Source of the DNA: Synechococcales cyanobacterium CNB
GTDB taxonomy: Bacteria; Planctomycetota; Phycisphaerae; Phycisphaerales; UBA1924
Reading direction: 5' to 3'
DNA: 64,000 bases
NCBI GenBank assembly: GCA_030263455.1
Contig: SZOZ01000002.1
Location: 1-64,000, forward strand
How positions within the stretch are numbered: the stretch's first letter is position 1; every line of letters starts with the position of its first letter. Of this stretch, positions 2,799 to 42,356 are shown piece by piece. The position numbers and the translations under genes are program-made. A model generated the notes under the pieces. It made no database searches. It was given only the letters and a program-made list of their open reading frames with translations, and had not been told where the DNA came from.

Positions 2799-4178
2799 GT
2801 GAGCAATCCCTTCATCTGTTGTGCGTTGGCGACGGCCGTCGCGGCGTGGAGTGGGTTGCCCGCCTCGCGCTGCGCTGCCCAGGCGCCCTGCCTTCATCAG
2901 AAGCTGACGGCGTCCGATGGCTCGCACGACGACCAGTTCGGGCTTGGGCTTGCGCTGCGCGGCCCCCTCGCCGCCATCGGCGCGTTCGGCGCGAAGAGCC
3001 AAGGCCCCTTCACGGGCAAGGTTCGCATCTTCGAGCGCCAGGGAACGGCGTGGGACGAGACGACGCGCCTGACCGCCCCCGGCGCGGCCCAGGGCGACTG
3101 CTTCGGCTATTCGATCGCGATGTCGAACTCGTTGCTTGTCGTCGGTGCGCCGAGCCTCTTCCCCAGCGAGGCGCCGGGGCGCGTGCATCTCTTCTCGCGG
3201 GTGGCGGGCGAGTGGGTCCACATGCAGCGGCTGAACGGATCGCAGGCCGGGCGCGGCGCACGTTTCGGACAGAGCATCGGCGTGCAGGGAACTCGGATCG
3301 TGATCGGTTCGCCGGAGGACCTGAGCCCGGCAGATACGGGCAAGGTCTACGTCTTCGAACTCAGCGCCAACGACCCGGACGAAGGGTGGAGCGAAGCGGC
3401 GATCCTCCGAGCCTCGGACGGCGCCGGCTCCGACCGATTCGGAGCGGCCGTCGCCGTCTCTGCTGATCGCATCCTCGTGGGCGCACCGAGGCATGGCGGC
3501 GGCAACGCGGGAGCGGCCTACATGTTCCGGCGCACGCCGGATGGTCAATGGGTCGAGGAGGCAAAGTTTACCGGCCCGAGCGGCTCCCAGGCCGGATCGG
3601 CCGTCGCGCTCTCCGGCGGGCTGGCCGTCATCGGCAGGCCGGGCGGTGCGCAGTCGAGCGCGGCCATCTACAGGCTCGTCGGCGGCGTGTGGGCGCCTGA
3701 ACAGTCCGTCTCCAGCGGGGGCCAGAGCTTCGGGCGGGCTGTCGCCTGCGCGGGCGACACCGTCATCATCGGCGGACGATCCGACCCGGAGTATCCCGGC
3801 GCGAACGCCGCTCGAGTCTACCGACGACAGGCGGGCGCATGGAGCCACACGAACGCTTTGAGCGTCGAGTCGCCTCCGGTTCCCGACCTGTTCTCAAGGA
3901 CGCTTGCGCTCAACGGCAACGTCGTGCTCGTGGGCGCGAACCGCGACGGGACGGACCACCAGAACCTCCCGGGGGCGGCCTACGTCTTCGGCCTCAACGG
4001 CTGCTCGTACTGCCCGGCCGACTTCGACATGAACGGGACCGTCGACCCCCTCGACGTCCAAGCGTTCCTCGTCGCGTTCACCGGCGGCGACCCCGTCGCC
4101 GACATCAATACCGACGGCGTACTCAGTTCGCTCGACGTGCTCGCCTTCCTGAGCGCGTGGTCGGCGGGGTGCGAGTGA
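2799..4178 (+). CDS. FG-GAP-type propeller protein with GC-type dockerin
   Basis: 459 residues. The GTG start at 2799 sits behind GGAGGCGGAGG. The signal peptide runs to about residue 28 (ALATAVAAWSGLPASRCAAQA). The body carries seven or so repeats ending 'G-x-A-Y-V-F / V-x-I-F-E-R' with 'D-x-F-G-x-x-V-A-x-x-G' (DQFGLGLALRG, DRFGAAVAVSADRILVGAP), typical of integrin-like FG-GAP propellers. The last ~55 residues are a double dockerin motif beginning CPADFDMNGTVDPLDVQAFL and closing LSAWSAGCE. It is probably an exported, surface-anchored protein; binding partner unknown. Confidence 0.85.
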   Translation: MSNPFICCALATAVAAWSGLPASRCAAQAPCLHQKLTASDGSHDDQFGLGLALRGPLAAIGAFGAKSQGPFTGKVRIFERQGTAWDETTRLTAPGAAQGDCFGYSIAMSNSLLVVGAPSLFPSEAPGRVHLFSRVAGEWVHMQRLNGSQAGRGARFGQSIGVQGTRIVIGSPEDLSPADTGKVYVFELSANDPDEGWSEAAILRASDGAGSDRFGAAVAVSADRILVGAPRHGGGNAGAAYMFRRTPDGQWVEEAKFTGPSGSQAGSAVALSGGLAVIGRPGGAQSSAAIYRLVGGVWAPEQSVSSGGQSFGRAVACAGDTVIIGGRSDPEYPGANAARVYRRQAGAWSHTNALSVESPPVPDLFSRTLALNGNVVLVGANRDGTDHQNLPGAAYVFGLNGCSYCPADFDMNGTVDPLDVQAFLVAFTGGDPVADINTDGVLSSLDVLAFLSAWSAGCE

Positions 4179-41137: not shown

Positions 41138-41230
41138 CCCGATTCTCCTTCGGGCGGGTTGGCCGCCCTTGCTGTGTGCGTTCCCGGGACTTCCGGAGGA
41201 GGGGAAGTCGCTTTGTGGTCTCTTGGATAT

Positions 41231-41259
41231 GTAGTAGGGGAAACCGATCTCGGTTTCAA
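41231..41259 (-). promoter_or_regulatory. Candidate promoter with operator palindrome for the PEP-CTERM gene 40391
   Basis: On the minus strand TTGAAA (41254-41259) is followed after 17 nt by TACTAC (41231-41236), a weak -10. The spacer contains most of the inverted repeat GAAACCGA-TC-TCGGTTTC (41240-41257), placed as an operator would be. Confidence 0.4.
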
Positions 41260-41279
41260 GAAAGTTTCTCGGAAACTTT
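41240..41279. repeat. Two adjacent inverted repeats, GAAAC/GTTTC-based
   Basis: IR1: GAAACCGA-TC-TCGGTTTC, 41240-41257, 8-bp arms. IR2: AAAGTTTC-TCG-GAAACTTT, 41261-41279, 8-bp arms. Both are perfect. The region 41215-41310 is AT-richer than its surroundings. Confidence 0.7.
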
Positions 41280-41336
41280 GAGGTTGGGCTAATATTCGGT
41301 TTATGGACGGGTCAATGTCCTGCGTTCATCCTGATT

Positions 41337-42356
41337 TCAACGAGACTCGGCGACATGCGCCTGAGGCGTAACCAAGTTCGCCGCCGGAACACCCCCGCGG
41401 GCAAACTCCGTGGCGTTGGAAAGCGTGGTCTCAGCGATGGCCTCCATCGCCTCGCGGGTGAAGAAGCCCTGGTGGGCGGTTACGACCACATTCGGGAAGG
41501 TCAGGAGCCGGGCCAGGACATCATCCTGAAGGGCACGGTCCGACAGGTCGCGGAAGAAGAGGTCTCCCTCTTCCTCGTAGACGTCGATGCCCAGCCCGCC
41601 GAGCCGCCCGGCCTTCAGTGCGCGGATCACCGCCCTGGTGTCGAGCACCGCGCCGCGGCTGGTGTTCAGGATGACGACGCCGGGCTTCATGCGTGCGAGC
41701 GAGTCGTCGCTGATGAGGTGGTGCGTCTCGGGCGTGAGCGGACAGTGGAGGGAGACCACGTCGCTGCGTTCGAGGAGTTCGTCGAGGCCGACGTAGCGCA
41801 CGCCAAGCCGGGCGAGTTCCGGGTCCGGTTTCGGGTCCGCGGCGATGACGGCACACCCGAAGCCGTGCATGATGCGCGCGAAAGCCTCGCCGATGCGCCC
41901 CGTCCCCACGAGGCCGACGGTCTTGCCGTGCAGATCGAACCCCATCAGCCCGTCGAGGGCGAAGTTGTGCTCGCGCACGCGGGCGGCGGCGCGGTGTAGT
42001 TTGCGGTTCACGGTCAGCAGCAGCCCGACGGCGTGCTCGGCGACGGCATGTGGCGAGTACGCGGGCACGCGTGCGACGGTGATGCCGCGCTCCGTCGCCG
42101 CGGCGAGATCGACGTGGTTGAACCCCGCGCTGCGCAGCGCAAGCAGCCTCGTCCCGCCGGCGGCGAGCGCCTTGATCGCGGGTCGGTCGAGGCGGTCGTT
42201 CACGAACGGGCAGACGCACGCGAAACCGGCCGCCAGCCCGGCCGTCGTCGCGTCGAGGCCCGGCTCGAAGTAGACGATCTCGTGCCCGTGCCGAGCGTTG
42301 GCGCGATCGAAGAACTCACGGTCAAATGGCTTGGCGCTGAAGAGGGCGATGCGCAT
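41337..42356 (-). CDS. ldhA: D-2-hydroxyacid dehydrogenase (LdhA-type D-lactate dehydrogenase)
   Basis: 339 residues. The sequence runs like fermentative D-lactate dehydrogenase: [70 protein letters not shown] (NAD-binding), [13 protein letters not shown], and active-site [10 protein letters not shown] (Arg), [10 protein letters not shown] (Glu), [11 protein letters not shown] (His). It interconverts pyruvate and D-lactate with NADH. It starts 39 nt after the glycosyltransferase stop, so co-transcription is possible. Cytoplasmic. Confidence 0.92.

Follow-up and report, generated by a model that had tools for sequence, protein, structure and literature searches.

Two inverted repeats standing side by side in the promoter region of a gene for an exported PEP-CTERM protein raise the question of whether they serve as operators and, if so, which regulator reads them. 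An earlier note on this DNA had taken the pair, with its GAAAC/GTTTC arms, to be a two-site operator for an unnamed regulator. In the window, by which we mean the whole stretch of 64,000 nucleotides that was analysed, both repeats were confirmed with perfect 8-bp arms, IR-A at 41240–41247/41250–41257 with a 2-nt spacer and IR-B at 41261–41268/41272–41279 with a 3-nt spacer (Table 1). On the minus strand the order towards the PEP-CTERM gene is IR-B, TTGAAA (41259–41254), 17 bp and TACTAC (41236–41231). The description of IR-A as lying between the −35 and −10 hexamers was nearly right, as most of it falls in the spacer but 4 bp overlap the −35. The remark that the region is AT-rich holds against the window (GC 0.44 at 41225–41310, 0.689 for the window). 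The promoter was missed by a simple sigma-70 scan, whose rules require the sixth base of the −10 to be T; TACTAC ends in C. Repeats of this kind (8-bp arms, spacer of up to 10) have 26 centres in the 64 kb, and IR-A and IR-B are the sole pair within 30 nt. When the 199-bp intergenic region was shuffled 2000 times with dinucleotides preserved, at least one repeat appeared in 52 shuffles and two in one shuffle. Two neighbouring repeats are unlikely to have arisen by chance. The leader of the PEP-CTERM gene also holds a 7-bp-arm inverted repeat (41188–41209) with a CCTCCTCC loop on the minus strand, partly retained in one sister species (G001). It was rejected as a 5′-UTR hairpin element, the leader (41138–41225) folding no better than shuffles (z −0.81).

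Table 1. Features of the PEP-CTERM promoter region and the candidate regulator gene
Feature	Position	Strand	Remark
Target gene, exported PEP-CTERM protein, 248 aa	40391..41137	-	TIGR02595 match
−10-like hexamer TACTAC	41231..41236	-	TATTAC in one sister species; 17-bp spacer
IR-A, perfect 8-bp-arm repeat over −35 and spacer	41240..41257	.	Non-conserved, probably coincidental
−35-like hexamer TTGAAA	41254..41259	-	2 bp from the 17-bp core of IR-B
IR-B, candidate operator palindrome AAAGTTTC-TCG-GAAACTTT	41261..41279	.	Fits consensus AAGTTTCCnGGAAACTT
D-2-hydroxyacid dehydrogenase	41337..42356	-	Neighbour upstream of PEP-CTERM gene, same strand
Candidate regulator gene	G000:C13:60395-61648	-	HTH-like ORF with palindrome 5′

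The two repeats fared differently among related genomes. IR-B is very probably an operator whose reader is a helix-turn-helix (HTH)-like protein, and we put at about 0.85 the probability that a dimeric transcription factor binds there, the factor being encoded by the candidate regulator gene of Table 1, whose counterpart in relatives usually lies divergent from the PEP-CTERM gene. This part of the original proposal draws support from conservation, specificity across the genome, co-occurrence, and covariation of operator and regulator; its two-site form found no support. Absence from related promoters and from elsewhere in the genome, which the earlier note had named as grounds for giving up its reading, was found for IR-A and not for IR-B. 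The conservation, location, co-occurrence and helix–operator covariation are observed; from them we infer binding, dimerization, activation in preference to repression, and sensing.

Copies of AAGTTTCCnGGAAACTT precede genes for PEP-CTERM or dockerin surface proteins across Phycisphaerales, most often ending 2 bp short of a TTG-type −35. In the genome search that the earlier note had proposed, the core AGTTTCnnnGAAACT of IR-B was found at no more than one mismatch in only two places of the 3.2-Mb genome, namely IR-B itself and a site 5′ of a 451-aa candidate regulator ORF on contig C13. With the PEP-CTERM protein as query, matches were obtained in 46 of 101 genomes (the window's and 100 relatives), some of them to the C-terminal tag only. 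Of 30 loci we inspected by eye the 17 in gene orientation, leaving out 13 minus-strand matches, and GAAGTTTCCnGGAAACTTC-like palindromes were seen in 13 of these 17, mostly immediately 5′ of a TTG-type hexamer. Two other species of the window's genus (G001 and G002) retain the inner palindrome AGTTTC-GAAACT, TTGAAA and TA(C/T)TACAT, and within an upstream region that has diverged among the three congeners, IR-B's inner core and the −35 are conspicuous. The outermost A of the left arm is G in both sister species, so the full 8-bp arms of IR-B are particular to the window; one spacer base is also changed in G001.

Scanning a named genome collection yielded 75 loci of the regulator, mostly titled Phycisphaerales, Phycisphaeraceae, Phycisphaerae or Planctomycetota and including strain Pla86, whose locus carries the motif, and strain Poly30. 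A site with up to three mismatches lies 5′ of the regulator in 61 of the 75, one match (L173) probably being due to chance. In the per-position profile of the 61 sites the palindrome arms give the strongest signal, in part by construction because the sites were chosen by motif; free of that selection are a TTGnAA block and an equally strong AT-rich block on the far side. The AT-rich block, AAAATTTCTT, is conserved 3–12 bp from the palindrome on the regulator side (L106–L180), and is possibly an UP-like element or a piece of the regulator's promoter. The regulators of 65 of the 75 loci were aligned, L107 being dropped for a stop codon and L123, L131, L141, L154, L164, L168, L173, L177 and L179 for a partial or doubtful frame. 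At L168, from strain Poly30, three GTTTCC/GGAAAC-type half-sites are clustered near the regulator start (approximately 3945–4020), an unusual multi-site layout. No convincing regulator–target pair was found at three further motif places (G037:C1:3059594, G068 and G025:C4:783335).

The palindrome on contig C13 lies 43 bp before the probable start of the regulator ORF, and among 30 homologue loci scanned the motif stands upstream of the regulator gene in 22; the eight without it are a fragment at a contig end and more distantly related homologues. Most relatives that bear the motif have the palindrome flanked by the regulator orthologue and the PEP-CTERM gene in divergent orientation, the arrangement expected of an autoregulated regulator–target pair. 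An exception is the window's own genus, in which the two genes are separated (on different contigs in the window's genome), the regulator adjoins ispD, and a palindrome is retained at each gene. We attach more weight to this than to any other single observation. The regulator's longest open frame (G000:C13:60377-61729; L034:183-1538) begins, with a TTG start, upstream of the gene's own palindrome, so automatic annotation may set the start too far 5′; the sister species suggests a start near residue 28. Members of the regulator family also occur in contigs titled Candidatus Aegiribacteria and Actinomycetes (L124, L128 and L162), reflecting either inter-phylum transfer or mis-binned contigs.

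The geometry of the promoters bears on what the bound protein might do. With the palindrome core at positions 0–16, 39 of 60 promoters on the surface-gene side reached a score of at least 8 out of 12. Of these 39, 31 share the window's offset of 19 for the −35, and two place it at offset 15, where it overlaps the site. The trinucleotide TTG stands at the window's offset in 36 of the 60 related promoters; in two of the 60 rows (L106 and L107) it is ispD that lies on the surface-gene side. Towards the regulator, offset 27 is the most frequent position of TTG (16 of 60), also outside the site. For the surface gene the centre of the site is estimated to lie near −46, given spacers of 16–17 bp. Activation is favoured because the site usually stands upstream of both −35 hexamers, and on this geometry the regulator is probably an autoregulated activator. 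The same site and regulator could, however, work by repression, the protein bound beside the −35 denying RNA polymerase access to the two divergent promoters pending a releasing signal. A dimer 2 bp from the −35 would fall inside the usual polymerase footprint, and autorepression by divergent regulators is common. Against this, most sites on the surface-gene side overlap neither −35 nor −10 and keep a nearly fixed spacing to the −35, and the commonest regulator-side TTG is likewise outside the site. We regard repression as a serious contender that has less than an even chance of being correct.

IR-A can be considered separately from the proposed activator site. It might be a second working operator in the window's species, a phased half-site at the −35 having been completed by a new right arm; its arms are a perfect 8 bp, its GAAAC lies 11 bp from the GAAAC in the right half of IR-B, and even one such repeat is rare among the intergenic shuffles. 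The right arm is nevertheless altered in both sister species, no 7-bp-arm repeat is present at the corresponding place in any of the 60 related promoters, and the nearest match elsewhere in the genome has three mismatches. A second operator is thus improbable, and the idea of a two-site operator that includes IR-A is rejected in view of the sister species and the 60 related promoters. It looks like a chance or species-specific repeat, to be taken as a coincidence pending a footprint.

The association of IR-B-like sites with the proposed regulator extends to whole genomes. A close homologue of the regulator is found in 24 genomes, 23 of which carry the motif, versus 12 of the 77 others (Fisher P=5×10⁻¹³, hand-tallied); the exception, G038, has NKDL-type proteins as its three best homologues and carries an HRKL-type homologue as well. 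At the order level, where a site anywhere in the genome was counted, the figures are 41 of 47 genomes with a homologue (E≤10⁻⁹⁰) versus 43 of 254 others (P=8×10⁻²¹, hand-tallied). In G037 the listed site beside the regulator, with two mismatches, falls outside the order-level criterion and a site elsewhere was counted instead. A reversed-pattern control also hits many genomes, above all outside the window's family, so that part of the 12 of 77 and the 43 of 254 is background.

The predicted recognition helix and the palindrome also covary. When 132 regulators were grouped by the recognition-helix segment (57 DKVL, 10 NKDL, 7 HRKL and 58 others), the window's motif was found upstream of all 57 DKVL-type regulators, where shuffles would lead one to expect 0.6, and of none of the 10 NKDL-type or 7 HRKL-type; among the other paralogues 4 of 58 have a weak match. 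Instead, all 10 NKDL-type regulators carry ATTCTCnnnGAGAAT or TTCGCnnnGCGAA (two of these rows being one place), and 6 of the 7 HRKL-type carry TTGTTTCnGAAACAA. One place (L161 and L181) counts twice in the motif tally of the 132 and once in the shuffle and tree counts. The grouping was made without L107, L154, L164 and L179, which were not entered, and without L131, L141, L177 and L217 on account of translated length; five of these (L107, L131, L141, L177 and L179) do bear the motif, and L154 and L164 have too little upstream DNA. Since the NKDL and HRKL motifs had been read off the same loci, further HRKL-type loci were fetched, 24 of 30 being retained after six already used were left out, and 23 of the 24 were new. 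At no more than three mismatches TTGTTTCnGAAACAA was found in 22 of the 24 and the window's motif in none, with 0.4 expected from shuffles for either. One of the misses, L272, has a DMKL helix and is the same place as the earlier L206; without it the count is 22 of 23. Further NKDL-like loci with N-K/R-type helices gave the NKDL motif in one of three (present at L305, NKDV; absent at L304, NRDI, and L306, NRSI), and L303 showed no match to it. The helix groups are nearly clades on the tree (six label changes, the least possible being three), so the covariation rests on few evolutionary events. A more distant paralogue with the helix INPTLRSR (L069, approximately 7533; G014:C3:10532) likewise shares its upstream region with a divergent PEP-CTERM gene, and overlapping copies of TTTCCCGGAAA lie in that region.

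This covariation also weighs on the suggestion that IR-B is read by some other regulator and that the HTH-like protein is a co-regulated passenger. A site at both genes would suit two targets of a third protein, but the motif shifts with the recognition helix of this protein, being present in 57 of 57 DKVL-type, 0 of 10 NKDL-type and 0 of 7 HRKL-type regulators, and the paralogues at 22 of the 24 follow-up loci carry another one. Moreover, no PEP-CTERM tail was seen in the best divergent candidate at the 21 of these 24 HRKL-type loci that were inspected, although a few of the candidates have hydrophobic N-termini and the flanks are short. We judge a passenger role quite unlikely. Least probable of all, and rejected here, are terminator hairpins of the dehydrogenase gene, since although both palindromes fold as RNA hairpins (−13.8 kcal mol⁻¹, z −2.76) and IR-B begins 57 bp past the stop codon of that gene on the same strand, the gene is outside the conserved module, most relatives have the counterpart of IR-B between divergent genes neither of which reads into it, a terminator scan reports none at 41240–41279, no T-run follows, and the pairing of IR-A is lost in both sister species.

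The proposed target belongs to a varied set of surface proteins. The window's PEP-CTERM protein passes the TIGR02595 model (17.4 bits, cut-off 16) and is below the cut-off of the Pfam PEP-CTERM model (14.3 against 20.7). The 58 surface proteins compared were that of the window and 57 divergent partners; one PEP-CTERM family model is matched by 27 of them, mostly as weak tag matches, and a GC-type dockerin model by 16 (E≤0.05). Many of the partners appear from their sequences to form one family with differing C-terminal anchors, a loose one as the mean column identity is 14%; the set is biased to exported proteins because partners were picked by a hydrophobic N-terminus.

The regulator itself has nothing significant in Pfam, NCBIfam, PHROGs or the PDB sequences, although it may belong to an unlisted family. 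The window's own copy has no Pfam family at E≤10; the 65 aligned members matched 17 Pfam families at E≤1, LacI not being among them, and HTH_3 was matched by one member at a non-significant E of 0.21. Its N-terminus holds QALATRLGIDKVLASRIL, which resembles a helix-turn-helix in its sequence pattern, and ALATRLGIDKVLASRIL has the spacing of the LacI HTH. A confident structure model of an orthologue (L106, pLDDT 89.7) has a helical N-terminal region and a β-rich C-terminal half, with 12 strands and two helices at residues 167–419. In a whole-model fold search the C-terminal half resembled Ost1 and the N-domains of M1 aminopeptidases (Z 8.4–11.5, 4–11% identity), which we read as a common architecture of the predicted fold and not as a shared function. 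The N-terminal domain alone gave weak fold matches without significance: XRE-type chains were included (3f6w, Z 5.4 over 78 residues at 3.3 Å; 2o38, Z 4.7 over 67 residues at 2.7 Å, and E 0.94 in Foldseek), as was lambda repressor (1lmb, Z 4.4 over 82 residues at 5.1 Å), and unrelated helical proteins ranked above them (e.g. talin R4, Z 6.7). With predicted helices, the sequence pattern and weak fold matches that rank among unrelated helical bundles, we call the segment HTH-like.

Our working hypothesis is that the N-terminal segment QALATRLGIDKVLASRIL would read the GTTTC/GAAAC half-sites, and that the dimer would sit directly upstream of the −35, centred near −46, where it could touch RNA polymerase and switch on the surface-protein gene. 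The second copy of the site, before the regulator's own gene, would provide autoregulation, and the predicted β-rich C-terminal half is perhaps a sensor. More broadly, and at somewhat under even odds, we suggest that Phycisphaerales harbour a so far undescribed family of transcription factors, rich in paralogues, that combine an HTH-like domain with a β-rich sensor and follow a recognition code of their own, in which DKVLASR, NKDLSSR and HRKLAWQ go with GTTTCCnGGAAAC, TTCTCnnnGAGAA and TTGTTTCnGAAACAA, respectively. The DKVL clade would serve one surface protein, keeping the palindrome at both genes after their separation, and the C-terminal domain would sense the ligand or export state of that protein. 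Among the matches listed from the open-licence literature we recognized no published description of the motif or the regulator family, which does not prove that none exists, and the matches listed for a query with the motif letters were primers. For bacteria represented here mainly by metagenome bins, the locus offers an operator, a regulator and a target through which the control of a surface protein can be tested. It also brings to light a regulator family for which the Pfam and NCBIfam copies searched gave no significant match, and the paralogue-specific palindromes of this family are a natural experiment on the joint change of recognition helix and DNA site.

Several known systems invite comparison. 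LacI-family regulators and their palindromic operators (PMC4052901) are similar to the proposed system in that a palindromic operator adjoins a promoter and paralogues change the operator along with helix residues. In contrast to LacI, no Pfam LacI HTH or sensor domain is among the matches listed for the regulator family, and the C-terminal half is predicted to be β-rich, not the Rossmann-like α/β fold of periplasmic-binding proteins. The all-helical N-terminal domain, with XRE-type chains among its weak fold matches, recalls the XRE and lambda-repressor proteins, from which the regulator differs in having no significant sequence or fold match and in its large unrelated C-terminal half. Activation from a position directly 5′ of a −35 is known from lambda CI as well. 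Finally, a report on Aquincola (PMC9850573) describes the PEP-CTERM gene pepA as dependent on RpoN (sigma-54). Control of that kind was rejected for the window's gene, as no −24/−12 pattern with up to three mismatches was found within 41138–41336. The window's promoter differs from that of pepA in being sigma-70-like in appearance, and resembles it in that a PEP-CTERM gene would again be under dedicated transcriptional control.
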